Shown here: positions 16,693-40,349 of the stretch, piece after piece | Position numbering within the stretch: position 1 is the first letter of the stretch | Layout: each line of letters opens with the position of its first letter | Origin: Deltaproteobacteria bacterium | Lineage (GTDB): Bacteria; UBA10199; GCA-002796325; JACPFF01 | NCBI GenBank assembly: GCA_016183065.1 | Contig: JACPFF010000017.1 | Span: 121,550-171,171, forward strand | Length of the DNA: 49,622 bases | Direction of reading: 5' to 3' | The notes under the pieces: generated by a model | Told to the model about the DNA's origin: nothing | Database searches by the model: none | Seen by the model: only the letters and a program-made list of their open reading frames with translations | Made by a program: the position numbers and the translations under genes

Positions 16693-17086
16693 CCATCACC
16701 CAATTTTTTGGAGCAACTCCTCGGCGAGGGGAGAATGATCTTCGGCGCGGTCTTGACCCCCGCTTCGCATCGGAAACCGTCATCTCCGCAAATCACCCAC
16801 TTACTCGGGAAAAGACAACTTTTTCATAATGACGCCGATCATCTCAGTGGAGGCTTGGAAAGCCGGGATGTCAAGGCCCCACAGTCCGGCTGCGTAGCGG
16901 CGCTGGGGGGGGGGGGTGACGTGAGCCTTTCTATAGTCGAGACACCGGAGGGAGAGAAAAATGGCGCCGGTCCCGGTTTTTTATTGCGCAAAATAGGACG
17001 GCGTGGGAGGGTCCCACGGAAGAACTTCCCACGTAAGGCTGAGTAGCGCCCCAGGTAGGATCGCCACGGCGAGGAAGGAAAGAGCA
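16693..17086. other. 394-bp non-coding gap with a G12 homopolymer
   Basis: No convincing gene was seen. Notable items are a run of 12 G (16905-16916) and a short dyad GTGGGA-GGG-TCCCAC near 17003-17017. A GC-rich stretch followed by a T-run near 16962-16982 only weakly resembles a terminator. The stretch may carry the promoter of the ATP-grasp gene, but I could not place one. Confidence 0.5.
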
Positions 17087-24931: not shown

Positions 24932-25558
24932 ATGCGACGACAACAACGATCTGCCGGAATGCTTCTGATGATGAGTCTCGTCGTGGTGTGGGGCTGCTCA
25001 AAGGGGACGGAATCGGCGGTGAAGGGAGCCACCATGTCACAAGCCGCAGCGCCAGCAGCCGGGACCGCACAGCAGGCCGTGCGTGAACCAACGACACCAA
25101 CCGTCGACCCCGCCAAAAAATATCACGGAGTGATTGAGACCTCGAAAGGAACGATCGAGGTCGAACTCTATGCCAAAGAGGCCCCGCTTTCGGTCACCAA
25201 CTTTGTGCAATTGGCCCAGACCCACTATTATGACGGGCTGACGTTTCATCGCGTGGAACCGGGCTTTGTGATCCAGGGTGGCGATCCCAGGGGCGATGGG
25301 ACGGGTGGGCCGGACTACACGGTCAAGGCCGAGATCGGCGCCAAACACGTGCGGGGCGCACTTGCCTGGGCACGGACCGGTGACAACGTCAATCCGCAGC
25401 GGCGGTCGAGCGGTTCGCAATTTTACATTACCCTCGCCCCGACTCCGTTCCTCGACGGGCAATATACGGTGTTCGGGAAGACCGTGAAGGGGATGGATGT
25501 GGTCGAAAGAATCGCCGTCGGCGACACGATCAAGCAGGTTTCCGTTATGTCGGAGTAG
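24932..25558 (+). CDS. Cyclophilin-type peptidyl-prolyl cis-trans isomerase, lipoprotein
   Basis: The ATG at 24932 follows AAGGAGAG; the long frame upstream is antisense to the metalloprotease and is not used. A lipoprotein signal (LLMMSLVVVWGC) and an Ala/Thr-rich linker (about 25-65) lead to a bacterial cyclophilin domain: VIETSKGTIEVELY, TFHRVEPGFVIQGGDP, GTGGPDYTVKAE, RGALAWAR and SSGSQFYITLAPTPFLDG. The Arg of FHRV, GSQFYI and TPFLDG correspond to active-site regions. It probably helps folding of envelope proteins from a membrane anchor. Its stop is only 7 bp from the convergent coaC stop. 208 residues. Confidence 0.92.
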   Translation: MRRQQRSAGMLLMMSLVVVWGCSKGTESAVKGATMSQAAAPAAGTAQQAVREPTTPTVDPAKKYHGVIETSKGTIEVELYAKEAPLSVTNFVQLAQTHYYDGLTFHRVEPGFVIQGGDPRGDGTGGPDYTVKAEIGAKHVRGALAWARTGDNVNPQRRSSGSQFYITLAPTPFLDGQYTVFGKTVKGMDVVERIAVGDTIKQVSVMSE

Positions 25559-25565
25559 GCGGTCG

Positions 25566-26099
25566 TCATCCCGCCGGCACTCTCCGTTGCACGGCATCGA
25601 CGAGGATTTCCAGGGCCGGGAGGCGGCCGTCGCCTTCGTAGCCGCAGGCGAGTGTGCCGTGATCCGGGGGGACGATCGTGTAACCCAGCGACGTGAGGGT
25701 CGCAACGTTGCGTTGGGTGATCGGGTTGTGCCACATGTTGGTGTTCATGGCCGGAGCAAAGATCACCGGGGCCTTGGTCGCATTGATGATGGTGCTCAAC
25801 AGGTCATCGCACAATCCGTGCGCGACTTTGGCCACGATGTTGGCAGTGGCCGGCGCGACCAGCACCAGTTGGGCAGCGTCGGCGAGGGCAATGTGACTGC
25901 ACGAGTGTTCCGCCTCGGTTGCAAAAAAATCCGCGCGCACCGTGTGACCGGAGAGTGTTTGCAGGACCAGTGGCGCCACGAAGTGATGTGCCGCTTCGGT
26001 CATGACGACCTGCACGTCGTGACCGGCCTTGACGAGCAGGCGGACGAGCTCCGGGGTCTTGTAGGCGGCAATGCCGCCGCTAATCCCTAAGAGGATCAT
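25566..26099 (-). CDS. coaC: Phosphopantothenoylcysteine decarboxylase (CoaC only)
   Basis: This flavoprotein decarboxylates 4'-phosphopantothenoylcysteine in CoA synthesis. ILLGISGGIAAYK, SHIALAD (catalytic His), LVAPATANIVAKVAHGLCDDLL, the PAMNTNMW motif and the LACGYEGDGR loop with its catalytic Cys are all present. In most bacteria this domain is fused to CoaB (synthetase) in one protein of about 400 residues; here the frame stops after 177 residues and the convergent cyclophilin follows, so the CoaB half is absent. The ATG overlaps the lacD stop (TAATG), indicating translational coupling. CoaD, a later step, is also in the window at 39310. Confidence 0.9.
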   Translation of the reverse strand: MILLGISGGIAAYKTPELVRLLVKAGHDVQVVMTEAAHHFVAPLVLQTLSGHTVRADFFATEAEHSCSHIALADAAQLVLVAPATANIVAKVAHGLCDDLLSTIINATKAPVIFAPAMNTNMWHNPITQRNVATLTSLGYTIVPPDHGTLACGYEGDGRLPALEILVDAVQRRVPAG

Positions 26100-27127
26100 T
26101 ACGCCGCGATGACCTTCTCTTTCCCGCCGAACGCATCCCACCACGGTCGGGCACCGGCCCTGATGACCGTATTCAGTGCCTCGATGTTTTTGACGCCGCG
26201 ATCGCGCAACCACGCCTCGAGGGCTGCCCGTCCCTCCCTGGCATAGACGGGGATCCCCTCCTTCCACGTGGCGCGGCCACAGAGGACGCCATTGTACCGG
26301 ACACCCGCCTCGTTGGCGAGCGAGAGACTCTCCCGGAACTCGGCATCAGAGACCCCGGCGCTCAGGTAGATGAACGGTTTTGTCGTGACTGCCGCACAGG
26401 CCCGGTAGTGCTCCATGGCCTCCTGTTTGGTATAGGCCGTGCCGTCCTTTTTGAAAACGGTCGTGCCGGCACAGTATTGCAGATTGATCGGAATCTCGAC
26501 TTTCATGACGTCGACATGATATGTCGGCTTGTCGAATTCCTCCATGCTCTTGCGTACGACGTCGGGTTTGATTTTCGCGAACTCGAGACCCTTGTCGTTC
26601 CCCCCCTTGGGGTCATAGCCGACAAATTCCAGAAAGAAGGGGAGGTCCGTGGCCACGCATTCTGCGCCGATATTGGCGACCCACTCATGCTTTGTCGCAT
26701 TGATCTCCGGACGTTCAAATGGCGAGTAATAGAGAAGGATCTTGCAACAGTTTGCGCCATGGGCCTTCAGTTTTTGCACGCTCCAATTCGGTAACAGCGT
26801 GGGCATCCGCCCGGGTTTGGTGTTGTCATAGCCGCTCTCTTCATAGGCGAGAAGGAGGCCGCATCCCTCGGCACGGACCCTGGTGGCCGGAAGTCCCCAG
26901 ACCGGATCGAGCAACATGGCGCTCGCATGTGGAGAAAGGACTTTTGTCACCGTCGATTTGAACTCTTCCATCATCTGGTCGGTGATCGCACTCGAGGCCA
27001 CCACCTTTTCCTTGGCGAGCGATTTTTGCAACGACCCGCGCTGATCCATGGCCGCTGCCGCGATGATTCCCTCCGCTGTTGCGACGGCATTCATATTGGC
27101 ATATTTTGCCCTGCTCATCGTCCCCAT
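26099..27127 (-). CDS. lacD: Tagatose 1,6-diphosphate aldolase (LacD-family class I aldolase)
   Basis: The sequence has the LacD pattern: early AMDQRGSL, LLDPVWGLPA, GCGLLLAYEESGYD, FFLEFVGYD, and the Schiff-base lysine in HVDVMKVEIPI. The C-terminal APAL-type segment is replaced by a KPFIYLSAGVSDAEF, GVLCGRATWKEG region typical of the family. LacD enzymes cleave tagatose-1,6-bisphosphate to dihydroxyacetone phosphate and glyceraldehyde 3-phosphate and often accept fructose-1,6-bisphosphate. With no other lactose or tagatose genes here, a glycolytic or gluconeogenic role is plausible. ATG 27127 follows GGAGGATCGG. First gene of a two-gene unit with coaC. 342 residues. Confidence 0.88.
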   Translation of the reverse strand: MGTMSRAKYANMNAVATAEGIIAAAAMDQRGSLQKSLAKEKVVASSAITDQMMEEFKSTVTKVLSPHASAMLLDPVWGLPATRVRAEGCGLLLAYEESGYDNTKPGRMPTLLPNWSVQKLKAHGANCCKILLYYSPFERPEINATKHEWVANIGAECVATDLPFFLEFVGYDPKGGNDKGLEFAKIKPDVVRKSMEEFDKPTYHVDVMKVEIPINLQYCAGTTVFKKDGTAYTKQEAMEHYRACAAVTTKPFIYLSAGVSDAEFRESLSLANEAGVRYNGVLCGRATWKEGIPVYAREGRAALEAWLRDRGVKNIEALNTVIRAGARPWWDAFGGKEKVIAA

Positions 27128-27176
27128 CCGATCCTCCTTGCTGGTTAGCTCTCTTCTCGCGCTGCTGACGCCACGC

Positions 27177-27204
27177 TTCATAGCCGATCTGTCCGCGGCG
27201 TCAA
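27177..27204 (-). promoter_or_regulatory. Promoter of lacD-coaC
   Basis: TTGACG (27204-27199), 16-bp spacer, TATGAA (27182-27177) on the minus strand, about 50 nt upstream of the lacD start. It lies back-to-back with the DUF6922 promoter. Confidence 0.45.
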
Positions 27205-27238
27205 CTCTTGCCACCATTTCTCCAAGAACGTGTTTTGA

Positions 27239-27266
27239 TTGAATTGCCGATCCGCTTTGGTATACT
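27239..27266 (+). promoter_or_regulatory. Promoter giving a leaderless transcript for the DUF6922 gene
   Basis: TTGAAT (27239-27244), 16-bp spacer and TATACT (27261-27266) with an extended TG at -15/-14. The ATG follows after 7 nt, so +1 falls at or next to the A of the start codon. No SD sequence fits in between. Confidence 0.55.
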
Positions 27267-27273
27267 GGGGTGT

Positions 27274-27624
27274 ATGCTCCCCCGGGGATTGCAACGGTTT
27301 TTTTGGGATGTCCGTTTTGACACTATTGATCCGGTGCAGCATCAACGCTATGTGATTGAACGATTGCTCGATCGAGGCGATGTGCCGGCCGTCCGTTGGC
27401 TGCTCGGGTATTATTCGCCGGCGAGTATGATCACGGTGTTGAAACAGACGCGCGTATTGTCTCGCAAGAGTGCGACATTTTGGGCACTCTATTTTCACGT
27501 CAACCCGACAGAGGTCCCATGCATCCAGAAATCCTGGCTACGGCGACTTCCGCCTGTCTCAAAAAGTCAAAGTCAGTTTTCTCGAGTATCACTACCCGTT
27601 AATCAATCCACTGGAGGTGTTTGA
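27274..27624 (+). CDS. DUF6922-type small protein, probable partner of a nucleotidyltransferase (3' end altered)
   Basis: The first 80 residues (MLPRGLQRFFWDVRFDTIDP, VIERLLDRGDVPAVRWLLGYY, TRVLSRKSATFWALYF) match the DUF6922 pattern usually encoded directly upstream of an AbiEii-like nucleotidyltransferase toxin. After about residue 85 the frame reads through the adjoining gene in the wrong frame, so the native C-terminus is probably lost or extended. In intact loci such proteins are thought to act as antitoxin-like partners; here the toxin is deleted. The start has a leaderless-type promoter. Confidence 0.6.
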   Translation: MLPRGLQRFFWDVRFDTIDPVQHQRYVIERLLDRGDVPAVRWLLGYYSPASMITVLKQTRVLSRKSATFWALYFHVNPTEVPCIQKSWLRRLPPVSKSQSQFSRVSLPVNQSTGGV

Positions 27625-27931
27625 AGGTGTGGCAGTGGCAAGTCTTGCGGATTTGGCGTGCATGAAATTGGAGGCGGTGGCCGCGCGCGGGAAAAAGCGG
27701 GATTTTCTGGACTTGTATGCCGTTGCCCAATCCGGACCTTCCATCCGGGAGATGGTACAATGGTTTGAGGAGAAGTATCAGAGCGTTCGTTACAATCTCG
27801 TCCATCTGATCAAGAGTCTCAGTTACTTCGAGGATGCCGAGGACGATCCGTCGCCGATCCTGTTGCATCCTATCGAATGGACCGATGTGAAGCGGTTTTT
27901 TCACTCTGAGGCGGCACGACTTCTTCCGTAA
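27521..27931 (+). pseudogene. AbiEii-like nucleotidyltransferase with deleted catalytic half
   Basis: A start MHPEILATAT at 27521 is typical of the N-terminus of these nucleotidyltransferases. About 20 bp later the sequence jumps, in another frame, to the C-terminal region: GYGDFRLSQKVKVSFLEYHYPL, then VAVASLADLACMKLEAVAARGKKRDFLDLYA and a helical tail to a stop at 27931. The GSxxxxDxD catalytic region expected between is missing, so roughly 250-300 bp has been lost at a junction near 27530-27540. The product cannot be catalytically active. It marks the remains of an AbiE/MenT-like toxin-antitoxin or phage-defence pair. Confidence 0.65.
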
Positions 27932-27961
27932 CTCTGTTGCGCTCCGGGCTCGTCAGGAGAG

Positions 27962-30900
27962 TCACGACACCCCGTTCTCTCCGCTGCCGCGTGGTGACCC
28001 GGCCAAAAAAGTCTCGATGGCGGTGCGCCAGGCATCGACGCGGGGGTCGACGTGAGCCGCACCCAACCGCTGTGTGGCATCGGCGATGAGGGTGTCGATC
28101 TGACGGCGAAGGGCGGATTCGCTGTCATCCGCGGGATCTTCCCCGCGGGCGGCATTGGTGACAAACGCCGCAAAGTGGTCGTGGAGATAGGCCTCCCACG
28201 TCGTGTCACTCCCGAAGAAAGGTCTCGTACCGGAGGAGAGCCAGAGCCCAAGAGCATTGGCCGCTGCGAGAAGTTCGGCCCGCTGTGACAATGAACCGGT
28301 ACGCCAGCGTTGAAACAGGCCAGACAAGGGATCACGCCCGGCGGACGATACGGTGGAGACGGCGACGTCGGCGGCGACGGGCGGGCTTTCAGCGACCTCT
28401 CCTGCCGTGTCCTCTCCAGTCTCGGGGACCTCTGGTGTGGCACCGGGGAGCAAGGCGGTCGCGGGTGCCGGACCCTCCGCCATAAACCGCCCAATCCGCA
28501 GAGAAGGCGACGGCGTGGCCTCGAGGGGGAGTCCGATCCACCGGCCTTCTGCGGTGGGAAGAACCACTTCGGGCCAAGCGTGCGCGGTCGTTCCCACTCG
28601 GCCACGCCGCGACGTGAGCCAGCCACGGGACAAACCGGCGGGGATCCCCGTGGCTCGCAGCAGGGAGAGGGCGGCGATCGAGAGCTCCAGACACTTGCCC
28701 CCCTTCATCTGCACGGTGGTCCGGAGGGAGTCGAGGAGCGTCGCCGTTCCGAAGTCGACCTTTTCGGACAGCTTCTTCCACAGGACGCGTCCCCGACGCG
28801 AGCGATAGTGTCGGTACCGGAGTCCACTCCGCTGCGTGACCTCCCGCTGAATGGCCACTAACGCCTCGCGCAACGGGCGGTCTTGCAGGCGGCTCACCAG
28901 GGTCGTCCATTGTTGCGCGAGCTGCGGTGCGACAGCAGCAATCTCTGCCAGCGAGGGCCCGGCGGTGAGGTCCGCGTAGAGCGTCGCCCCGTAATATTGC
29001 GGGCCTGCGGTGGGCAAAGCGGCGAGCGGTGTCTCCAACAATGGGTGGGTGACGGGATTGGGATTGAGGGCGTAAGCCACCTGTCCCTCAGGTACGGACT
29101 CGGTGTGCACCGTACCACCCACCGGCTGGAGTGTGTGGGCATCAACCGGTTGTCGGTCCGGATTGACTCGACCCCGTACCACGTGTGGCCCGTCCTCTCC
29201 CAGTGTGGCGGGCGTAATCGTCTCTCCCGCATGAAAGGCCCCTCCCACGAAGTGGCCACCAAATTGTTCGCGGAGGTATTGCGCGCGTCCGTGCGGTGCC
29301 GGGGCCAACCGGAGCCACGGGCGCGTCCATCGAAAGAAAATCCGCGCCATGACGCCGGAATCCGTGAGGCGGAGGACCGTGTCGACCGCGGCCGAGACGC
29401 CCCTGGCAATCGCCCTCCCTCCCTGCGCGATGGCTGACACGGTCTGTGACGCTCCGCCACGCACCGCACGACCCATCGTGGCCAGACGTTCTCTCATGGC
29501 CTGGAAGTCGTTTCGGAGTGCCTCACTCTCGCGATCCCACAGCTTCAGCACGGCATCAAACCCCTGTTCCACGAGATCGCGGAAATGGAGGTCCAGATGG
29601 CTCAAGCGCCACCGTGCCTGCCGCGCGCGGCGTACGACTTTCTCTGCGATCTTTACGGCGTTTCTCACGCGTTTTTTGAGGGTGCCGAGAGGATCCTCAA
29701 GCTCCAGCGTCCCGAGCTGGAGGTCCCGATAGAGATCGTAAAGAGAGTGCCGCTCACGCCGGGTCATGTATTGCGGGTAGCCGCTCGCTGTGTGCAGAGT
29801 GTCTGCCGCGATCCCAACCGCCGGCGCAGTCACGTTCGCACTCGCGGCCCGGCCTGCGAGTTCTGCCACAATGTCTGGTTCCTTCGAAGGGTCGATCCAG
29901 AGGGCCTTGCCGACGCGCACGGCAAGCGTTTCCGGATCCGCGGTGGCCAGGTCAAATACCACTGTCCCCGTACGTTGCAGCGCGCTCTTGACGTCCGGGA
30001 TGTGACGGCCGAGTAGAAGGCGATTGAGGATGTTCTGTATGTCCCTCGTGCGCCAGCGGGTCCTTCCAATCCCCCACTCGATCGTTGGCACCGGAAAGGT
30101 GCTTCGGGTGGCCACGGGCTGGACCGTGACGCCGCGGGCGTGCAGGGTGGTGTGGAGACGTTCCAGTCGGGCAGGTGCCATGGTCGTGAGATCACCGATG
30201 AGGTAGAGCATGGTTCCGGGGCGCAAAAACCGCCGCAGGTGCAGGGCCTCGAGCTGCGCCGGAAGTTGCGACTGTGTGGACGACGGGATCTTGGCCTCGG
30301 CCACGGCTCGCAGGATGGCCTCGAGCTGGTGGTGACTGGGCCGTGGCGGGAGAAAGGTCTCCTTTTCCCCGATCAGGAGCCCCACCGGGTCGCGGCCCTG
30401 CAGGGTGTGTTGGGCGATCGTCCCGGCGAGGATCGCAAGACTCCGCACCGGGATCCCGGCAATGCACGCCGGGTCGATGACGATCATGGTGGGACGGGCC
30501 CCGGTGGCCGTGCGGCGCCGGGCCATCACCATCCCTTGTACACGCCGATCCTCGCCGAGTCGCGCAGTTGCCAGCCAATCGATATCTCGCGTATCGGCGT
30601 GTCGTTGCTCGATCTCCACCAGTTCGGAGACCTCCCCCTCGTGACCATGATGCCGCGGACGCTGCCGCGCGCCACGGTTGTCAAAACCGAGCGCCGGTGC
30701 GCTCCTCCGTCCTCGCAACCGACGGCAGAGGCGACGAATCGACTCGGCATCGGTGGTGAGTTGGGTGGCCGGGGGACGCGGGGGTGACTCGAGCATTTCG
30801 AGGAACGTGGTCAGCAGATAATTGCTGATATACTGCTTCCCCGACTCCCGACACACCCGCAAGCAGCTCTCCAGGGTGACCTCTACCGCTGCCGGGGGCT

Positions 30901-32275
30901 CCAGTTGTGCAAAGAGCTGGAAATAATAGGCCGCCATCGAATCATCGTGAGGCACAGTAGGCAGATATTTTCTAAAGAGCGAGCGGGCTGTCGCGAAGTC
31001 GCCGATGGCGATCAGCCCTTCAATCCCCTGACGGAAAGTCCAAGGCGAGACGCTTGCGTCGCTGCGGTCAATTGTTTGAAGCATGGCCTCTCTGGCCAAC
31101 TTCCGGTCGCCCCATCTCGCCCAGAGCTTTAAGGCATCTCCAAACAACAGAAGAGGAGAGACCCAGTCGTCGACGAACTTCAGACACTTGGTCTCGGCCG
31201 CGGCGGTTTCTCCCCAGTCATACAGGAGCTTCACTATCTCTATCGGCCACGAGTGCGATCGCGTGAGGAGGTCCACGGCCTCGCTGCGGCGCCCCAGGCG
31301 ATCGAGCAACCGTGTTACCCGGAGGACCATGTCCTCGATGTTGTTTTCGCTGAGCTGGGAGAGATAGTGCTCACTACGCTCCAAATCACCCCACGCTTCA
31401 TACAGTTCTGCCATCTGGAGCAGATGCTCTGGAGGACTGGTCGGAGCCTGTTGAGAGAAAAAGGCGTCGGCGATGGTGCGATCTCCATATGTTCCGATGA
31501 TACGTGCGGCCATGAAGGCGATATCGGCGTCCTTGTTGGCAAGGAGAGATTCCAAGCGCTTCAACTCCCCGGTGTCGCCCGATGCACACAAGAGTTCGAT
31601 CGCTTGTACGGCATGCGACGGATACAAATCACGGTATTGCAGCAGTCGGTGCAATGCCGCTGCGGCAGAGAAGCCCTCCCCGGCCTCTTTCAAGTGTGCG
31701 GCGGCATGTAGGATGAAGAGTGTGTCATGTGAGGTCTCGATCAGATGTTTCAGGTGGGGTACGGCGATCCCCGCTTGGCCCCATTTGATCAACAGTCCGG
31801 CCGCGTCAAGTATCTCTCCGAAATGGCCACCTCTGTCCGTAGAGGTCGCCACTGAATGTTGCAAATAAGCGATCGCACGCGACTCTTCACCCCAGGCATG
31901 GAGCAGCCTGGCCGCGAGTAAGGGATGCTCAGTGAAGGCCTGTTCGAGTTCTGTGAGGAGGCCGCCGCCTGGGGTGCGCGAGCGACCGTTTTGCAGGACG
32001 CCGCTGCGGACTTGTTGGTAGAGAGCTTCTAGCGTGTGGGGAGCTTCTGCATCACGTGCGGCAAGTGCGGCTACCTGGGAAGGGGGCACCACTGAGGCGT
32101 TGGGTGACACGAAGGGAACAGACGTGGCAGGGGTATTGGGCGCGGCCAAGGCCGAACGTGTCGCAGGGACGTGCGGTGTCGTGACCCTTGGCGCGCGTCC
32201 AGCGGGACGAAATACGGAACCGAATGATATCTTTGGAAATCTGATCCCCACGCGTGGACTCCCCCACACCACCAC
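27962..32275 (-). CDS. Giant TPR-DUF58-transglutaminase-like fusion protein
   Basis: Residues about 80-520 are alpha-helical TPR-like repeats (LLHAWGEESRAIAYLQ, LYEAWGDLERSEHYLSQL). Around 540-650 is a DUF58 (vWA-related) domain: RDIDWLATARLG (about 567) and MIVIDPACIAG (about 597), but the metal-site DxSxS is degraded to DPACIAG. A charged helical region spans about 790-950. Near 1180-1260 is a transglutaminase-like domain with a Cys (GGKCLELS, about 1194), a His (TAHAWPEVVLP, about 1232) and a following LPLEATPS, consistent with the thiol triad. DUF58 and transglutaminase proteins are usually separate neighbours of a MoxR AAA ATPase; here they are fused and no MoxR is seen. No signal peptide or membrane helix is evident, suggesting the cytoplasm. 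GTG start has GAGG upstream. Divergent from the M48-kinase gene. Confidence 0.75.
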   Translation of the reverse strand: MVVWGSPRVGIRFPKISFGSVFRPAGRAPRVTTPHVPATRSALAAPNTPATSVPFVSPNASVVPPSQVAALAARDAEAPHTLEALYQQVRSGVLQNGRSRTPGGGLLTELEQAFTEHPLLAARLLHAWGEESRAIAYLQHSVATSTDRGGHFGEILDAAGLLIKWGQAGIAVPHLKHLIETSHDTLFILHAAAHLKEAGEGFSAAAALHRLLQYRDLYPSHAVQAIELLCASGDTGELKRLESLLANKDADIAFMAARIIGTYGDRTIADAFFSQQAPTSPPEHLLQMAELYEAWGDLERSEHYLSQLSENNIEDMVLRVTRLLDRLGRRSEAVDLLTRSHSWPIEIVKLLYDWGETAAAETKCLKFVDDWVSPLLLFGDALKLWARWGDRKLAREAMLQTIDRSDASVSPWTFRQGIEGLIAIGDFATARSLFRKYLPTVPHDDSMAAYYFQLFAQLEPPAAVEVTLESCLRVCRESGKQYISNYLLTTFLEMLESPPRPPATQLTTDAESIRRLCRRLRGRRSAPALGFDNRGARQRPRHHGHEGEVSELVEIEQRHADTRDIDWLATARLGEDRRVQGMVMARRRTATGARPTMIVIDPACIAGIPVRSLAILAGTIAQHTLQGRDPVGLLIGEKETFLPPRPSHHQLEAILRAVAEAKIPSSTQSQLPAQLEALHLRRFLRPGTMLYLIGDLTTMAPARLERLHTTLHARGVTVQPVATRSTFPVPTIEWGIGRTRWRTRDIQNILNRLLLGRHIPDVKSALQRTGTVVFDLATADPETLAVRVGKALWIDPSKEPDIVAELAGRAASANVTAPAVGIAADTLHTASGYPQYMTRRERHSLYDLYRDLQLGTLELEDPLGTLKKRVRNAVKIAEKVVRRARQARWRLSHLDLHFRDLVEQGFDAVLKLWDRESEALRNDFQAMRERLATMGRAVRGGASQTVSAIAQGGRAIARGVSAAVDTVLRLTDSGVMARIFFRWTRPWLRLAPAPHGRAQYLREQFGGHFVGGAFHAGETITPATLGEDGPHVVRGRVNPDRQPVDAHTLQPVGGTVHTESVPEGQVAYALNPNPVTHPLLETPLAALPTAGPQYYGATLYADLTAGPSLAEIAAVAPQLAQQWTTLVSRLQDRPLREALVAIQREVTQRSGLRYRHYRSRRGRVLWKKLSEKVDFGTATLLDSLRTTVQMKGGKCLELSIAALSLLRATGIPAGLSRGWLTSRRGRVGTTAHAWPEVVLPTAEGRWIGLPLEATPSPSLRIGRFMAEGPAPATALLPGATPEVPETGEDTAGEVAESPPVAADVAVSTVSSAGRDPLSGLFQRWRTGSLSQRAELLAAANALGLWLSSGTRPFFGSDTTWEAYLHDHFAAFVTNAARGEDPADDSESALRRQIDTLIADATQRLGAAHVDPRVDAWRTAIETFLAGSPRGSGENGVS

Positions 32276-32290
32276 CGCCCCTCGCTATTA

Positions 32291-32351
32291 TTATCGGCCA
32301 TTTTCAAAAAGAGTTGCTTCAGACGCAACTTTCTTGAGCATTGGCCGATAA
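32291..32351. promoter_or_regulatory. Nested 61-bp dyad between the divergent giant genes
   Basis: Outer arms TTATCGGCCA (32291-32300) and TGGCCGATAA (32342-32351) are perfect inverted repeats. Inner arms AGTTGC (32312-32317) and GCAACT (32325-32330) are also perfect. Both share one centre at 32321. In a 114-bp divergent gap this suits a dimeric or tetrameric regulator controlling both genes. Confidence 0.6.
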
Positions 32352-32361
32352 TCCCTATAGC
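32334..32361 (+). promoter_or_regulatory. Candidate promoter of the M48-kinase gene
   Basis: TTGAGC (32334-32339), 16-bp spacer, TATAGC (32356-32361). The -35 and spacer overlap the right arm of the dyad, so binding there would block it. The start codon is 28 nt beyond the -10 box, with no clear SD. Confidence 0.4.
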
Positions 32362-32389
32362 GGGGGCTTCACAGAAAAGTACACACGGT

Positions 32390-35300
32390 ATGACCAAGAT
32401 CCCTCGGTCCATGCGACCGGCGTTCGGCCGTCTCCAACGGGTTGTCCCGCAGGGGCCGCTCGCGCGTACGATGCGACCATGCTCCCAGTCCGAGCCGTCG
32501 CCAGGATGGGCGGCGTCGGCTGTCCAGGCGCCGGTGCGCACGGCCGGGCGCCTCTGGCAGGCGCGTGATACCGCGAGTGCCGTCACGGGCGGGGAACCGC
32601 GGACGTCCGTCCTTGGGATGGCCGCCGGGACTGTGGCGAGTTCCACTCAGGACGGGGCACAGGAGCCCGTCCGTCTTGCGCGTGGGGCTGCGATGGCGCG
32701 CGCAAAGCTCCTCTTTGAATATGGCCAGTTGCCGCCCGACCATCCGGTCCAGCAGTATGTCGCGGGTCTCGTTGCGCGTTTTCCCATCCACCATGGGGTC
32801 ACGCCGCGGGTCTACGTCCTCCCATTCTGGTGGGAGGAAAATGCCTGTTGCACCTGGGATGGCGCCATTTTTGTGAGTCTGGGGCTTCTCAAACGGATCG
32901 CCGCACGGGGGTCCCTGGAAGAACTGATCGGCATTCTGGCCCACGAATATGTCCATGCCTACCGTGCCCATCTGGCCTGTCGACCGGTGTCGAGCGACTT
33001 TCTCACACGGGCCCTGCGAGAGGTCAGTATGATGCGCCTCCATGAATGGGAGGCCGACATGCGCGGAACCGCGGCTATCCTCGGGGAATTGGGGATCCCC
33101 TACGCCCCGTTCGAGGCCTATCTGATGCGAGAGGGGGAGGCGCGCGAACGACGCACCCATCAGCGGAGCATCGTGCACGGGTCCGGTGTCGATCGCGCAC
33201 TGAATATCGCCTTGCTGGGACGACTGATCGACCTGCGCGGCAGTGACGTCGAGACGCGCACCCCGTGGCCGGCCGCACTCGATCTGGGACAGGTGGAGGC
33301 TGCGGCACTGGACCACGCCTGGCCGGGTCTCTTGCGGGAGTGCCAGTTGACGGCCCAGCAGCGCGATCGCGGCACGCCCAAAGCGTGGCCCGCGCTGGAT
33401 GAGTACTCCACCGAGGAACTTTTTTTTGCCCTCGAATTTATCGACTCCATGCGGTGGCGCCGGGACACACTGCGCAAACCGCTCTCACACCATGTGTGGG
33501 GAGTCCTCACGGCCCGCTCTATCCCGACGGAGATCACCGATGCCGAACAACGCACCATCTGGGAGTTTGTGCTCAGACAACTCTATAGCCCCTCGTCGGC
33601 TCTGCCATTCTCCCCGAAGACATTGTCCACCCCCGGAGCCCTGACATATCTCTCGACAGTGGTCCGTTATCTGACCACACACCCACCCGTGCCGGCGACT
33701 CATCGTGTGGCGTTGTTGCTCGACAGTCTGATCCGTAGCCTCGGCGAGAATGCCCAGCTCCCTGCAGAGACCCTGCGCGTCGGGATTGTCCCCCTTGCTG
33801 AGGCCATTACGGCATTCGACACGGCGTGCGGCAGCGGGCCACCGGTGACGGCGGAGCAGATCCAGCAACAATTGGAACGCGCGATTTCGCACCGGGATGT
33901 CGACCGACAACTGGTACTGATGCTGACGGGATACATCGATCATCTCCTCTCGATCGACCTGCTTTGCATCCCAAACGGAAGGGAACGGATTGCTGCGGAG
34001 GTCGAAAAATTATTCCAGCGGCTCCCCGACCGGACCCTGGTGACATGGAACAGGGTCATTTGGCTGTTGCAAATGGAGCTCAATGAGAATCCCAACAAAT
34101 ATTCAGGTCAAAGGATCGGTGGTGGATTGTTGACTTGCGAGAACTTCCTTTTAGCTCTTCCGTGGCTCTTTTTTCACGAGGGGCTCCGTCTCGTCGAGGA
34201 TATCACCCCACGGGAACGGGAGATGATCCGCATCGTCATGGTGACAGAAGGTCCATTCGTCGTGGAGGAGCTTTCTGATAAAACACGCGATCGTGGACAG
34301 GAACGACTCAAAGTCTTGCTCAAGCCACTTGTCGAGTATGTGGACTGTCGAACCTTGGTCCAGGAACCCGTGACCCACGAAGACGTTGCGTTGTTTGCCC
34401 GATACGCAACCGATGGAGATTTTGCATTGCAGCGACTCCCCCTGATGGGTTTCATGGGTCGCGCGGCGAAATATTCCGCCGATGTCGCGGTCTACTTTCT
34501 GCGCGGACTGGAGATCCGGGGGATGGTGGCGGCCTTCGAGGCGTGGCGCGCCATGGGGGTCGATGTCGAGGCATTGCTGGCCAAACATCCCGACCGCTGT
34601 GGCCCCCTGGTGATGGTCGTGGTCGAGGCCCTGCAATCTGGAGGAGTGCCCACGGCGAGTGCCCTGCAGGAGCTGTTGCGCGTCAGTGCCGTGATCGGCG
34701 ATCCCTATCTCCGTGCGCGGGTGGAGGCGGTGGTTGTCGGGCGCCTCTGGCCACAGCTCTCCTTTGAAGAGAAGCTGGCACTCCTCTTTCCACCCGAGGG
34801 GGCGCGCGGCGTGCACGATGCGACACTGGCACAGCGGTTCTTCGAAGAGGAAATGACCGATGGCACGCGGTTTGCGCGCGTCCGGACGGTCGGCGATCAG
34901 GCGCTCTCACGGGCCTTGGATCAGGGTCATGCGGTGGTGGGGCTTGGGGTCTTGGCCGACATCGATCTCGATTTTCACGACGTTCTCGACTGGCTCAAGA
35001 TTTTTCTCTCCAGTCGGAATGGTGACAGTCCCCTGCGGGCGCGGATCTACGACCTGCTCAAGGGGGCGACAGGCGTGATGAACCCGGGAAGACGTTTCGA
35101 CGTCAATTACTATGCCGAATGGCGCGACCTGCTGGATGCGGCCGATCAACTGGTGCGGCAACTCTACTCGCTGGGCGACGGGGGCCGGCACATGCTGGTC
35201 CGGAAGTTTTTGACAGCCCGGGGTGGGGCGTTGCGTACCCTGGAACTTCGGCAGAAGTTCCTGCAGGAGATGTTGCAGACATTGGTGCGCGATGATGGTT

Positions 35301-36766
35301 CATCGCCGGCCGTGATGGAGACCCTGACCGCCGTGAGTACCGCGATGGCGCAGGTCGATGCGTGGAAGGTCCTCTTCTTCGGATTGGCCGGTCTGCTGAG
35401 CGATCGGGTAGTGCGTCCGCCGGAAAAGCCCATGCCATGGTACCAGGTGTATGAAGCAGAAGAGGACTATAACAGTCTCGAGGATCGCCCCAAGGGACGT
35501 CTTGCAGCGGTCTTGGCGCGATATCAGTGGGACGAGATTCCCGCCACGAGTCGGCAAAAGCCGTGGCGCAATGCCGCGACCTATGCACGCTATGCCGATG
35601 GGGCGTTGCGCGCGGGACTTGCGCGTCTGGCGGGGTCGGATGGCGCGCCCGTGGCGGCTACACAGCACCTTGCTCCCATGCAATTTGTGGTCGAGGCCGG
35701 GGAGCGGATCGGGACCCTCGGGGTGCGGTTGTTGCAGCAGCTGCCGCTCGTGGTGCCGTCGCTTTCTCCGGAGATCGAGCAGATGTTGTCCACGATCTTC
35801 GACCAGGTGGAGGGCCAGACAAAACCAGCGGCACTTCAACTCGCCGAGCGGGAATGGCCGGAGTTCTGGGAGACCGTGGCGTGGGTGGGCCCGCGGCTCG
35901 GTGGTGGATCAATGGTCACCGTCTACCCGATGCGCACCCATGCGGGCGAGGCGCGCGTGGTGAAGGTGCTCAACCCGAATCTCGTCTGGAATTTTCGCGA
36001 GGCCTATGCCTATTTCTCCAGGGTGCTCGATCAGCTCGTCCGCACGCATGACGGGGTCTATGAAGATGTGCGTCTCCTGTTGGACGACATGTACGCATGG
36101 GTGATGGCGGATGCGAGCTTCGAAGGCTTTCTGGAGGATGACACCATATTTCGCACGTGGGTGGAGTCGTTGGGACTGCGCGCCGGTCCGTATTGTCTCC
36201 GGATTCCGCGGTCGTTCGGGCCGGAAAGCCGGTTTCTCTGCCAGGAAGAGCAGGTCACGAGCATCAATCTCACACAATGGGACGCGCTCGTTGCCGCAGG
36301 CCACGACATGCAACAGATCGTGCGGCTCTATGCCCGGTTTTATATGGCGCAATTACTGAATGGCATGGCCTTGTCCGATCTCCACACTGGGAATGTCGGA
36401 GTCACTGCGCAACACGAGTGCGTCATCTACGACCGCAATCTCTATGTGAAACTGACGCCCGCGATGCGGGCCGTGATGACCCAGCTCCTCTTCGGACAGG
36501 GGGATACCGAGGCGCGGGTCACGACGATTCTCTCGGCCCTGCAGCTCGATGCCACCGATGCCGCATTCCACGCGACGGCGACTGCCCTGGTCGCGGCGGC
36601 TGCGGTGCAGGACTGGGCGCGGGTGCAGCGGGAGATTATTGCGCTGCGCAAGGCCGGGGGAGTCTGGAATTATCAATACACCCTGGTCCTGAAGAATCTC
36701 CGCTTCCTCGCGCGGCTCGCCGCCCGCGCCGGATTTGGCAGTCTGCGCGCGGCGCTGATATCGTGA
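32390..36766 (+). CDS. Giant M48-like metallopeptidase-UbiB/ABC1-like kinase fusion
   Basis: The N-terminal region holds an M48-type peptidase core: ILAHEYVHAYRAH (HExxH at about 185) and a downstream HEWEADMRG third ligand (about 218). A long helical middle (about 300-1150) shows no family I can name. The C-terminal 300 residues resemble an ABC1/AarF/UbiB atypical kinase: a Gly-rich GPRLGGGSMVTVYPM (about 1168), a lysine in VVKVLNPN (about 1190), and SDLHTGNVGV followed by VIYDRN (about 1328-1350) in place of DPHPGN and DFG. No ordinary signal peptide is visible. The pairing of a zinc peptidase with an ABC1 kinase in one chain is unusual. Start: ATG at 32390; an internal later start (for example before the EPVRLARG segment) cannot be excluded. 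Confidence 0.75.
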   Translation: MTKIPRSMRPAFGRLQRVVPQGPLARTMRPCSQSEPSPGWAASAVQAPVRTAGRLWQARDTASAVTGGEPRTSVLGMAAGTVASSTQDGAQEPVRLARGAAMARAKLLFEYGQLPPDHPVQQYVAGLVARFPIHHGVTPRVYVLPFWWEENACCTWDGAIFVSLGLLKRIAARGSLEELIGILAHEYVHAYRAHLACRPVSSDFLTRALREVSMMRLHEWEADMRGTAAILGELGIPYAPFEAYLMREGEARERRTHQRSIVHGSGVDRALNIALLGRLIDLRGSDVETRTPWPAALDLGQVEAAALDHAWPGLLRECQLTAQQRDRGTPKAWPALDEYSTEELFFALEFIDSMRWRRDTLRKPLSHHVWGVLTARSIPTEITDAEQRTIWEFVLRQLYSPSSALPFSPKTLSTPGALTYLSTVVRYLTTHPPVPATHRVALLLDSLIRSLGENAQLPAETLRVGIVPLAEAITAFDTACGSGPPVTAEQIQQQLERAISHRDVDRQLVLMLTGYIDHLLSIDLLCIPNGRERIAAEVEKLFQRLPDRTLVTWNRVIWLLQMELNENPNKYSGQRIGGGLLTCENFLLALPWLFFHEGLRLVEDITPREREMIRIVMVTEGPFVVEELSDKTRDRGQERLKVLLKPLVEYVDCRTLVQEPVTHEDVALFARYATDGDFALQRLPLMGFMGRAAKYSADVAVYFLRGLEIRGMVAAFEAWRAMGVDVEALLAKHPDRCGPLVMVVVEALQSGGVPTASALQELLRVSAVIGDPYLRARVEAVVVGRLWPQLSFEEKLALLFPPEGARGVHDATLAQRFFEEEMTDGTRFARVRTVGDQALSRALDQGHAVVGLGVLADIDLDFHDVLDWLKIFLSSRNGDSPLRARIYDLLKGATGVMNPGRRFDVNYYAEWRDLLDAADQLVRQLYSLGDGGRHMLVRKFLTARGGALRTLELRQKFLQEMLQTLVRDDGSSPAVMETLTAVSTAMAQVDAWKVLFFGLAGLLSDRVVRPPEKPMPWYQVYEAEEDYNSLEDRPKGRLAAVLARYQWDEIPATSRQKPWRNAATYARYADGALRAGLARLAGSDGAPVAATQHLAPMQFVVEAGERIGTLGVRLLQQLPLVVPSLSPEIEQMLSTIFDQVEGQTKPAALQLAEREWPEFWETVAWVGPRLGGGSMVTVYPMRTHAGEARVVKVLNPNLVWNFREAYAYFSRVLDQLVRTHDGVYEDVRLLLDDMYAWVMADASFEGFLEDDTIFRTWVESLGLRAGPYCLRIPRSFGPESRFLCQEEQVTSINLTQWDALVAAGHDMQQIVRLYARFYMAQLLNGMALSDLHTGNVGVTAQHECVIYDRNLYVKLTPAMRAVMTQLLFGQGDTEARVTTILSALQLDATDAAFHATATALVAAAAVQDWARVQREIIALRKAGGVWNYQYTLVLKNLRFLARLAARAGFGSLRAALIS

Positions 36767-36826
36767 AAAAGGGTGGCGCGCCAGAAGATCGCCAGACAGC
36801 TAAAGGTATTTTCAGCAATTCTCTTG

Positions 36827-36856
36827 TTGATTTTTCAATAAAATTAGCGGTATTAT
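36827..36856 (+). promoter_or_regulatory. Promoter giving a leaderless transcript for the DUF4143 ATPase
   Basis: TTGATT (36827-36832), 18-bp spacer, TATTAT (36851-36856); the ATG at 36864 follows after 7 nt. The preceding 60 bp is AT-rich and no SD exists. Confidence 0.55.
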
Positions 36857-36863
36857 TGTTGAT

Positions 36864-38006
36864 ATGAGATTTCAAAGACGACTGAATTTGTTGAAATTAT
36901 TGGAAAAGAAGTCCTTTTTCCTGTTTGGGCCAAGGTCGACCGGAAAGAGCTATCTCCTTCGGGAACAATTGGGGTCGCGGGCAAAAATTCTCGATCTCTT
37001 GAGAGCGGAACTTTTTTTGCGGCTCTCCCAGAATCCCACCGACCTTGAGACCCTCCTGCCGGAGAACACGGGGACCATTGTTGTCATCGATGAGGTGCAA
37101 AAGATTCCACTCCTGCTCGATGAGGTCCATCGTCTCATTGAAGCGCGCGGTCACCGTTTTCTCTTGACCGGAAGCAGTGCGAGAAAATTGAGACGCGGTT
37201 CGACCAACCTGCTTGCGGGGCGTGCCTGGACCGCTGAATTATTTCCGCTTGTCTCCGCGGAAATCGGCGACTTTCAATTGGAGCGATACCTTCGCTATGG
37301 GGGGCTGCCGCAAGTGTGCCAAAGCGAGGATCCTGCGGAGGAGCTCGATGCCTATGTCCAGACGTACTTGAAAGAGGAGATTCTGGCAGAGGGATTGATC
37401 CGCAAAATCCCCCCGTTTTCCCGTTTTTTGAAGGCCGCTGCGTTGTCCAATGGGCAACAACTGAACTTTACCCAGATCGGGAGTGACGCACAGGTCGCTC
37501 CCTCAACCGTACGCGAGTATTATGCCATTCTGGAAGATACGCTCGTCGGTTTTTTGCTCGAACCGTGGACCGCGTCCAAAAAAAGAAAAGCGGTCCGGAC
37601 GGCAAAGTTTTATTTTTTTGACCCTGGAGTCACGCACGCCATTGCCGGAACGAAATCAGTGGACCGCAATTCCAATCTGTATGGCGCCAGTTTTGAACAG
37701 TTCATCGGCATGGAACTTCGGGCCTATATCAGCTATGAACGAAAGAAGGAGCCCCTGACCTTTTGGCGATCGTTGCGCGGCGACGAGGTGGATTTTCTCA
37801 TTGGGGATCACACGGCCATCGAAGTCAAATCCACCGCAAAAGTGGCGTCGCAGCACCTGAAAGGATTAAAAGCCCTTGCAGAGGAGGGGGTGTTCAAGAC
37901 GTTCTATTTGGTGAGTCAGGACCGCGTTGCTGCAAAAAAAGAGGGAGTACACTCCCTTCCCTGGGATGGTTTTTTGCAAAAACTTTGGTCTGGTGCCATT
38001 GTGTAA
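36864..38006 (+). CDS. AAA ATPase with DUF4143 domain
   Basis: P-loop FFLFGPRSTGKSYLLRE (about residues 18-34), Walker B TIVVIDEVQKIP (about 70-82), sensor FLLTGSSARKLRRG and the family's RAWTAELFPLVSAEI and YLRYGGLPQV motifs. The C-terminal DUF4143 part has a nuclease-like core with DEVDFLIG and AIEVKST (PD-(D/E)xK-like arrangement: Asp, then Glu-x-Lys). Such ATPases are common, scattered and of unknown function; mobility or stress roles have been proposed. AT-richer than flanking genes. Convergent with aspC, with a possible terminator between. Confidence 0.88.
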   Translation: MRFQRRLNLLKLLEKKSFFLFGPRSTGKSYLLREQLGSRAKILDLLRAELFLRLSQNPTDLETLLPENTGTIVVIDEVQKIPLLLDEVHRLIEARGHRFLLTGSSARKLRRGSTNLLAGRAWTAELFPLVSAEIGDFQLERYLRYGGLPQVCQSEDPAEELDAYVQTYLKEEILAEGLIRKIPPFSRFLKAAALSNGQQLNFTQIGSDAQVAPSTVREYYAILEDTLVGFLLEPWTASKKRKAVRTAKFYFFDPGVTHAIAGTKSVDRNSNLYGASFEQFIGMELRAYISYERKKEPLTFWRSLRGDEVDFLIGDHTAIEVKSTAKVASQHLKGLKALAEEGVFKTFYLVSQDRVAAKKEGVHSLPWDGFLQKLWSGAIV

Positions 38007-38014
38007 GGGGATCC

Positions 38015-38055
38015 AAAAGGGACCAAGAGTACCCTTTCTTAAGATAAGTTTTTTT
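38015..38055 (+). terminator. Possible terminator after the DUF4143 ATPase gene
   Basis: AAAGGG/CCCTTT arms (38016-38021 and 38032-38037), then CTTA-AGA-TAAG immediately followed by seven T (38049-38055). The stem next to the T-run is short, so efficiency is uncertain. Confidence 0.45.
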
Positions 38056-38116
38056 AATGCCTGCATTCAGACTCTTAGCCGTCCGTCCGCCACACAGAAT
38101 CTCGTGGCAATCACGG

Positions 38117-39313
38117 TTAGACCCTCAGCCGCGAGACCGCTGCCGCAAACCGCGCCAGGCCTTCCTTCAGGTCCGCCATGCCGAGCGCGTAGGAGAAACG
38201 GAGATAGCCGGGCGTGCCAAAGCCTTCGCCGGCCACCACCGAAATGTGCGCATCTTCGAGGAGATACTCGGTGAGGGCCTCCGAGGTGGCGATGGTGCGT
38301 CCGTTGACCGACCTGCCGAGGAGCGCCGTGACATTGGGATAGGCGTAAAAGGCGCCCCGCGGTTCGACACAGGTGATGCCGGGGATGTTGCGCAGTGCCG
38401 CGGCCATGACATTGCGGCGTTCCTGGAACGCCGCCCGCATGGTCTCCAGCGCGTCCTGCGGGCCGGTGTAGGCGGCAATCGCGCCGTGTTGTGCAAAGGC
38501 GCAGGCGTGTGTCACGACCTGTCCCTGCCACGTCCCCATCTGCGTGATAACGGCCTCCGGGCCGGCGGCCCAGCCGATCCGCCAGCCGGTCATGGCATAA
38601 CTTTTCGAGACCCCGTTGACGAGGATCGTCCGATCGCGGCATTGCGGTGCGGCCGTGGCAAAACTGCAAAATGTCGCCGGGGGATACACCAACGCCTCGT
38701 AGATCTCATCGGAGATGACCCACAGATTTTTTTCCGCGCAGACGATGGCCAATGCCTCCAGTTCGTCGTGCGTGTAGACAATGCCCGAGGGGTTGGAGGG
38801 TGTGTTGAGCATGAGGACTCTGCTTTTTGCCGTGCAGGCCCGTCTCAATGCGGGAGGCGTCAGCTTGAAATTTGCCGCTTCATCCGTCGCAATGATTGTT
38901 GGCAACCCGTCGCAGAGGAGCGTCTGGTCGGCATAGGAGACCCAATAGGGTGCGGGAATCAACACCTCGTCACCCGGGTTGATCAAGACCTGCAGTGCCG
39001 CGAAAAGGGCCTCCTTCGCGCCACACGTGACGAGGATGTCATGCGGGACATAGGTCACACCATTGGTGCGCTGCAATTTTTCGCAGATGGCCGTGCGGAG
39101 CGCCGGGAGGCCGGGGACCGGCCCGTATTTCGTGGCACCATTGTGGAGCGCCTCAATGCAGGCGGTCTTGATGTGGGGGGGCGTGTCAAAATCCGGTTCG
39201 CCGACGCCAAAATTGATCACGGAGATGCCCTGTGCGGTCAGGGCGCTCGCCCGGGCAGAGGCCGCGAGGGTTGGCGAAGGTTTCACCCGGTCAATACGTT
39301 GCGACCAGCTCAT
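38117..39313 (-). CDS. aspC: Aspartate aminotransferase (class I, PLP-dependent)
   Basis: INFGVGEPDFDTPPHI, KYGPVPGLPALR, SNPSGIVY, the substrate-side DEIYEALVY and the PLP lysine in VNGVSKSYAMTGWRIGWAAG place it in the aspartate aminotransferase group I-gamma. It interconverts aspartate and 2-oxoglutarate with oxaloacetate and glutamate; some members also make aspartate from prephenate. ATG 39313 follows AAAGGAG. Its start overlaps the coaD stop (ATGA), completing an rsmD-coaD-aspC chain with two 4-bp overlaps. 398 residues, normal length. Confidence 0.93.
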   Translation of the reverse strand: MSWSQRIDRVKPSPTLAASARASALTAQGISVINFGVGEPDFDTPPHIKTACIEALHNGATKYGPVPGLPALRTAICEKLQRTNGVTYVPHDILVTCGAKEALFAALQVLINPGDEVLIPAPYWVSYADQTLLCDGLPTIIATDEAANFKLTPPALRRACTAKSRVLMLNTPSNPSGIVYTHDELEALAIVCAEKNLWVISDEIYEALVYPPATFCSFATAAPQCRDRTILVNGVSKSYAMTGWRIGWAAGPEAVITQMGTWQGQVVTHACAFAQHGAIAAYTGPQDALETMRAAFQERRNVMAAALRNIPGITCVEPRGAFYAYPNVTALLGRSVNGRTIATSEALTEYLLEDAHISVVAGEGFGTPGYLRFSYALGMADLKEGLARFAAAVSRLRV

Positions 39314-39801
39314 GCCCACTCCTTTCGACACAACTTGGCGCGCAATTGTTGCTCGACCAGCGGATGGATCATCTCTGCGGCCCTTCCGCCATGGCGCACG
39401 ACATCCTTGATAATGGAGGAACTCAAATGGGTATACCGTCCTTCGGTCATCAGGAAGATGATTTCCAGCTCGGGATAGAGGGTTTTGTTGGCCAGCGCCA
39501 TCTGGAATTCGTATTCATAATCAGACATCGTCCGGATGCCGCGGAGAATCCGGTGGATTTTCCGCTTGCGGGCGTATTCAGCGAGCAATCCGTCAAAAAA
39601 ATCGATTTCGATCTTCGGGTGATTCGCGAAAATTTCGCGTAACATCGCCGCGCGTTCCTCCGCCGAAAAAATCGGCTCCTTGCTCATGTTCACGGCCACT
39701 GCCACAATGAGCCGGTCAAAAATGCGGATCCCCCGCTCAATGATATTGAGATGCCCGTTTGTTGGGGGATCAAAACTCCCGGGGCAGATCGCCGCTCTCA
39801 T
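39310..39801 (-). CDS. coaD: Phosphopantetheine adenylyltransferase
   Basis: It adenylates 4'-phosphopantetheine, the penultimate step of CoA synthesis. The nucleotidyltransferase motif ICPGSFDPPTNGHLNII, the RGIRTMSDYEYEFQMA segment and the SSSIIKDV C-terminal motif are diagnostic, and 163 residues is the usual size. The start codon overlaps the rsmD stop and its own stop overlaps aspC. rsmD-coaD is a common bacterial neighbour pair, which supports both calls. Confidence 0.96.
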   Translation of the reverse strand: MRAAICPGSFDPPTNGHLNIIERGIRIFDRLIVAVAVNMSKEPIFSAEERAAMLREIFANHPKIEIDFFDGLLAEYARKRKIHRILRGIRTMSDYEYEFQMALANKTLYPELEIIFLMTEGRYTHLSSSIIKDVVRHGGRAAEMIHPLVEQQLRAKLCRKEWA

Positions 39802-40349
39802 AGGGGCCTTCCTATAAAGCTGATGCGCGTTTGTCCATATTTCCGTTCATCGACCACGCGAAATGCTGCGGGAGGCTGTGGCGGTTCCTTCGGATGGTGC
39901 TCAATAATGATGCGGCCTCGCGGGCGCAACAGGCCCAAGTCCGCGGTCAGTTGGAGGGTGGGGGAGACCAGATGCTTTTCGTAGGGGGGATCGATGAAAA
40001 TCACGTCGAAGGTCTGTTCCTGCCGCGCCAATTGCTGCAGCCCGCGTGCTGCCGGTGCGCGCACGATCGTGGCGTATTCGGTATAGTGACACCGGTCGAG
40101 ATTATCCATGATCAAGGCAATCGCTTGCGGTGCGGCATCGATGAAGGTGGCATGTGCCGCGCCACGGCTCAGGGCCTCGATCCCCAGGGCACCGGTGCCC
40201 GCAAAACAGTCGAGGATCTCGAAATCCGTGACGTCGTAGAGAATATTGAAAATGGCCTCTTTGACTTGATCAAGGACCGGTCTGATCGGCGCCCCACGCT
40301 TGGGGCCGACCAATCGCCGCCCCTTGGCTCGTCCTGCGATCACGCGCAT
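39798..40349 (-). CDS. rsmD: 16S rRNA (guanine966-N2)-methyltransferase RsmD
   Basis: MRVIAGRAKGRRL, RPVLDQVKEAIFNIL, DCFAGTGALGIEALSRGA (SAM-binding) and the catalytic FIDPPYEK motif identify RsmD. It methylates N2 of G966 in 16S rRNA during 30S assembly. 183 residues, full length. First gene of the coaD/aspC operon. Directly upstream (40359 onward) lies a modular hairpin repeat, which separates it from the DUF4190 gene. Confidence 0.94.
   Translation of the reverse strand: MRVIAGRAKGRRLVGPKRGAPIRPVLDQVKEAIFNILYDVTDFEILDCFAGTGALGIEALSRGAAHATFIDAAPQAIALIMDNLDRCHYTEYATIVRAPAARGLQQLARQEQTFDVIFIDPPYEKHLVSPTLQLTADLGLLRPRGRIIIEHHPKEPPQPPAAFRVVDERKYGQTRISFIGRPL

Follow-up and report, generated by a model that had tools for sequence, protein, structure and literature searches.

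We analysed a 49,622-nucleotide stretch (the window) of contig JACPFF010000017.1 from a Deltaproteobacteria bacterium of the phylum UBA10199 (assembly GCA_016183065.1), in which two giant genes face apart. One encodes a DUF58-transglutaminase protein, and the other encodes a protein that joins an M48 metallopeptidase to an ABC1 kinase (M48-ABC1). The two giants are very probably co-expressed, from a symmetric pair of promoters of the sigma28 (FliA) type, and they look more like candidate weapons than like parts of a conserved machine of two proteins. We put at about even the chance that they belong, as co-expressed genes, to a regulon tied to a type III secretion system (T3SS) and are probably effector candidates. 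The domains, catalytic residues, promoter elements, regulon-wide enrichment, and T3SS and sigma genes behind this reading can all be read from the sequence.

An earlier note on this DNA had described the divergent pair, and our analysis confirmed two open reading frames (ORFs) of 1437 and 1458 amino acids (aa) with 114 bp between them. The gap, whose content the note left unmentioned, consists largely of two copies of a sigma28-type promoter facing apart. The features, in window positions, are as follows.

27962..32275, minus strand: helical-repeat/DUF58 (vWA-like)/transglutaminase giant, 1437 aa, GTG start
32277..32367, strandless: dyad spanning the gap, comprising the two promoters and an outer inverted repeat, CCCTCGCTAT/ATAGCGGGGG
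32291..32317, minus strand: sigma28-type promoter GCAACTCT-N11-GCCGATAA for the DUF58-transglutaminase gene, the highest-scoring site in the genome
32325..32351, plus strand: sigma28-type promoter GCAACTTT-N11-GCCGATAA for the M48-ABC1 gene, the third-highest site in the genome
32390..36766, plus strand: M48 metallopeptidase/alpha-solenoid/ABC1 kinase giant, 1458 aa, ATG start

The Escherichia coli sigma28 consensus is TAAAGTTT-n11-GCCGATAA (PMC2859248). Both gap promoters have the 11-nt spacer and match the -10 element at 8/8 positions, and the -35 element matches TAAAGTTT at 5/8 positions on the plus strand and 4/8 on the minus strand; the element's own -35 consensus here is GCAACTTT. The promoter set resembles sigma28/FliA regulons in its -10 element, its spacer and the presence of a FliA-type factor, and differs from them in its -35 element, in having that factor inside a non-flagellar T3SS cluster and in feeding lineage-specific proteins. 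Because the two promoter copies face apart, the gap folds strongly (z=-6.7, with no shuffle as good), and its dyad is the only inverted repeat of the window with arms of at least 22 nt at such spacing. An RNA element in the gap was rejected: positions 25000-40000 gave no Rfam match, and the two promoters explain the fold.

To see how widely the element occurs, we scanned genomes with a profile derived from 18 promoter sites of other genomes. The window's own genome (1.887 Mb) holds 47 sites of at least 16 bits, compared with none in the reversed sequence. Of these sites, 33 lie no more than 80 nt from the start of an ORF, a proximity seen at 10% of random positions (p=8e-23). In related genera, too, ORFs are preceded by the element, among them the M48-ABC1 gene of genome G039 (25.1) and both DUF58-transglutaminase loci of genome G009 (21.5 and 27.0), against control scores with a 95th percentile of 9.9 and a maximum of 16.9. 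The proteins downstream of the sites are mostly lineage-specific, half of them have at least 400 aa, and just 5 of 44 appear to have a signal peptide. Most of ten example regulon proteins lack a Pfam domain; nine of the ten come from related genera. It is thus well supported, from these genome scans, that a regulon of about 45 sites includes both giant genes.

Several further sites were recorded. Candidate regulon members lie at L164:9772+ (797 aa), L161:14165+ (993 aa) and L079:7446+ (613 aa), with several more sites in L157, and three related regulon proteins (two in L127, one in L171) start with MAPI. Within the window, a 16.6-bit match at 16812 (+) lies upstream of an ATP-grasp gene (17003), and a 15.2-bit match at 550 (+) lies upstream of a matrixin-like gene. 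At L102, L112 and L113, the same promoter type precedes short proteins with a coiled coil and a zinc ribbon, which three related genomes share, and an ORF carrying the motif MPKxxAAEIL lies downstream of them.

The window's own genome (G000) carries a T3SS cluster on contig C15, at about 220-246 kb (L094, L095). Its parts are as follows.

C15, about 220-246 kb: SctV, SctD with FHA, SctJ, FliA-type sigma factor, SctI (weak), FliG-like, SctL, SctN, YscO-like, SctQ-like and SctT
L167:15891-16976, on contig C21, apart from the cluster: SctU

The FliA-type sigma gene, at L094:11270-12217, sits between SctJ and SctI, and its best matches in the Protein Data Bank (PDB) are FliA structures (1.9e-23 to 2.7e-17). 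SctV matches low calcium response protein best (2e-175, versus 1e-122 for FlhA), and the best matches of SctJ are PrgK and MxiJ. A flagellar identity was rejected because of the best matches of SctV, SctN and SctJ, although FliG- and FliM-like parts are present. Among the papers searched, none joined UBA10199 and type III secretion.

The promoter regulon, taken with a FliA-type factor inside the T3SS cluster, makes an effector-like role the most likely one for the giants. That factor is the best candidate reader of the back-to-back promoters, and we consider it likely that it reads them. Both giants would then be effector-like enzymes made while the secretion machine is active, and the T3SS would probably deliver them into another cell; that both are T3SS substrates we rate slightly below an even chance. 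In the M48-ABC1 chain, a helical arm would carry a zinc protease at one end and an altered ABC1 kinase at the other, and the DUF58-transglutaminase chain would hold a vWA-type binding domain without a metal site and a thiol transglutaminase or protease on a repeat scaffold. It is doubtful that both act on the same target.

The architecture of the M48-ABC1 protein is as follows.

32702..33289, plus strand: M48 domain, with NAxxxxxGxI, HEYVH (residues 185-189) and HEWEAD (residues 218-223)
33290..35680, plus strand: all-helical region (solenoid) from protease to kinase, from the AlphaFold2 model
35681..36763, plus strand: ABC1-type kinase, from Pfam, Foldseek/VIA and the motifs SDLHTGN and YDRN

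The earlier note had named an M48 domain from HExxH and HEWEAD. The Pfam score of the protein itself is below threshold (16.1 versus 20.3); homologues score 24.9-39.4, with values above the cut-off of 39.4 and 30 bits in two of them, and a six-sequence family profile matches M48 structures in the PDB (3c37, E=1.7e-10; BepA, 8.6e-7), which upholds the assignment. Wherever a homologue includes the N-terminal part, it retains both HExxH and the third-ligand E(xxx)D. The protein shares NAxxxxxGxI, HExxH and ExxxD with M48 metallopeptidases such as 3c37, BepA and HtpX; unlike them, it has no signal peptide or transmembrane (TM) helix, and a solenoid and a kinase follow in place of TPR or membrane helices. 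By a simple hydropathy scan, both giants lack signal peptides and TM helices; the note had said the same of signal peptides. In the AlphaFold2 model (residues 259-1458), the solenoid is helical throughout, with a per-residue confidence score (pLDDT) of mostly 70-90 in its C-terminal half.

The kinase, also named in the earlier note from SDLHTGN and YDRN, is borne out by Pfam (ABC1, 36.5 bits, cut-off 22.9) and by a confident model (pLDDT 80-94) that best matches COQ8A (Z 26.4, 342 residues, 3.6 A), MSMEG_1954 and Rv3197 (Foldseek/VIA); after ABC1 kinases, the next structural matches are RIO/APH at Z 15 or less. It shares the fold, the HxDxxxxN-type catalytic loop, the metal-binding Asp and the N-terminal helices with ABC1/UbiB kinases (COQ8A/ADCK3, UbiB, MSMEG_1954, Rv3197), and the catalytic residues are kept in nearly all homologues. 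By contrast with those kinases, in nearly all members VRxLQ replaces KxGQ (VRLLQ in the 1458-aa protein) and GGGS replaces the Ala-rich loop, several members have Arg at the position of the ATP-binding lysine, and here a protease is fused and a TM anchor is missing. The NCBIfam UbiB score is 27.6 against a cut-off of 487.55, and by its sequence the kinase is a divergent ABC1 relative, not UbiB itself. In COQ8, protein phosphorylation is held in check by the Ala-rich loop and KxGQ; since both are altered here, the present ABC1 version may be closer to an ordinary kinase. As a whole, the fusion matches no curated family among those searched.

For the 1437-aa protein, the domain assignments are as follows.

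28511..28777, minus strand: transglutaminase core, residues 1167-1255, from Pfam and alignment
30179..30595, minus strand: DUF58 domain, residues 561-699, from Pfam, with IDWLATAR and a degraded metal ion-dependent adhesion site (MIDAS)

Pfam supports DUF58 (28.3 bits, cut-off 23.4) and Transglut_core (34.4 bits, cut-off 23). IDWLATAR occupies residues 565-572, and alignment shows that the intact MIDAS (DxSxS) is missing, the position reading MIVIDP (residue 597) or equivalents in homologues. The transglutaminase triad of Cys (GGKCLE), His (TAHAW) and Glu (PLEATP) aligns and is kept in the homologues that reach that region; homologues of the giant lie at loci L013, L015 and L065. Pfam and alignment thus agree with the note on both domains, the degraded vWA metal motif and the Cys/His site. 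Its TPR label is plausible for the N-terminal repeats, for which weak HEAT support was obtained (E=0.041). The structure model is poor (pLDDT 46), so its top Foldseek matches, vWA domains at E 0.002 at best, lend weak support.

The joint presence of DUF58 and transglutaminase domains recalls MoxR-DUF58-transglutaminase operons, among them the bifidobacterial PFNA cluster, made up of kinase, FN3, AAA, DUF58 and transglutaminase (PMC8430577, PMC6803598). Unlike those operons, the domains here lie in one fused chain with repeats, a degraded MIDAS and no TM segment, and the genome (89% complete) has no MoxR (AAA_3) match above the cut-off (best 24.6 bits versus 27). In G009, a second DUF58-transglutaminase copy (L010/L014, contig C4, about 16 kb) has in-frame stops and an intact promoter element; its last part is 85% identical to the intact copy 60 kb away.

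We then determined the distribution of the two families. In our sample of the phylum (46 genomes from one class), M48-ABC1 occurs in three genomes and DUF58-transglutaminase in four, and only the window's own genome has both; the hypergeometric P of at least one such overlap is 0.24. M48-ABC1 relatives were recovered with an alignment-based contig search, a first scan with a single protein having given none. Beyond the phylum, they occur in 5 of 380 genomes of one Patescibacteria class, as a stand-alone protein, and in 7 of 285 Omnitrophota genomes, mostly within ORFs that are several thousand residues long, the longest having 11,659 aa. Some giant Omnitrophota ORFs thus hold the same M48-solenoid-ABC1 module, as part of multi-thousand-residue proteins where the window protein stands alone. 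At L046 (G077, Omnitrophota), the M48 and ABC1 halves lie in different frames of one contig, through a frameshift, a split gene or an assembly error. The family tree mixes phyla, placing the window protein with Patescibacteria (95/97) and the G042 protein with other Patescibacteria (100/99); some branches are long and the inner placement is unsure. Because the phyla are intermixed, the tree is compatible with transfer between phyla.

At the M48-ABC1 loci examined, we saw no conserved neighbour and, outside the window, no DUF58-transglutaminase gene. In G039, a convergent 904-aa gene (L011:5591-8305, plus strand) with a cyclic-nucleotide-binding domain overlaps the M48-ABC1 gene tail to tail by 26 bp. 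By eye, its C-terminus resembles an ABC1 C-lobe (PKPRNLIL...ILDAG), possibly with a transglutaminase-like His-Asp region; the idea that it is a transglutaminase analogue was rejected, since support extends only to the cyclic-nucleotide-binding domain.

This distribution bears on what the giants do. A possible though rather unlikely alternative to T3SS-linked effectors is that M48-ABC1 works on its own, in the cytoplasm or at cell contacts, as an enzyme that moved among small host-dependent bacteria (Patescibacteria, Omnitrophota and UBA10199) and was only recruited by the T3SS-linked regulon. The stand-alone module in Patescibacteria, its presence inside giant Omnitrophota ORFs and the intermixed tree fit this, as does the reported link of giant ORFs in Omnitrophota to symbiotic or predatory life (PMC10066038). 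By itself, however, such movement leaves unexplained why the gene carries a sigma28-type promoter in two genera of the phylum.

It is improbable that the giants are ordinary intracellular enzymes that happen to be neighbours, namely a lipid- or quinone-type ABC1 kinase with an M48 quality-control protease and a DUF58-transglutaminase of the MoxR-operon kind. Membrane-lipid settings, for example plastoglobules, are known to contain both ABC1 and M48 proteins. However, the TM segments and a MoxR partner above the cut-off are missing, the families are rare, the ABC1 signature motifs are replaced and both genes carry the same rare promoter type.

Least probable of all, despite the adjacent, divergent genes with a symmetric common promoter region and the large neighbour of M48-ABC1 in G039 too, is a conserved module in which the kinase/protease and the thiol enzyme serve one target, since DUF58-transglutaminase is missing from every other tested genome that has M48-ABC1 (two in the phylum, besides those of Patescibacteria and Omnitrophota), M48-ABC1 is missing from three genomes that have DUF58-transglutaminase, and the single overlap is what chance would give. 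The earlier note had proposed one system acting on a shared target; the homologues occur independently, and conservation of such a system is unsupported. The functional link that it drew stands in another form, as matched back-to-back promoters of one regulon.

Four points weigh against a role of the giants as T3SS-linked effectors. The high rank of the two gap sites is partly built in, because the profile sites were first collected with the gap as query; the genome-wide enrichment is unaffected. Regulon N-termini are proline-rich (p 1e-4) and otherwise ordinary relative to other ORFs, and proline content, their only difference, is not a recognised T3SS signal. In the profile scan, the DUF58-transglutaminase genes of G013 and G014 lacked such a promoter. 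To our knowledge, T3SS delivery is not expected in Patescibacteria and Omnitrophota; because M48-ABC1 occurs there too, T3SS delivery cannot be its general mode.

Elsewhere in the window, a 1265-aa Ser/Thr kinase-AAA-TPR protein is encoded at 18843-22640 (minus strand) and a second Ser/Thr kinase at 2716-4257. A viral or plasmid origin was rejected: no relative was found in IMG/VR or INPHARED, and plasmid matches were only haloarchaeal UbiB-type genes. Anti-phage defence was likewise rejected, the window proteins having no PADLOC match.

Tentatively, and at rather low probability, M48-solenoid-ABC1 would represent a new effector family with both protease and kinase functions, passed among host-dependent or predatory bacteria from three or more phyla; in UBA10199 the T3SS would inject it, together with the transglutaminase giant, under the sigma28-type factor of the T3SS locus. 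The promoter analysis makes two orphan giants members of a testable regulon, and the profile with its roughly 45 promoters points to further effector candidates in a phylum about which little is known. The protease-kinase fusion, common to Patescibacteria, Omnitrophota and UBA10199, may be a shared tool of bacteria that live on other cells.

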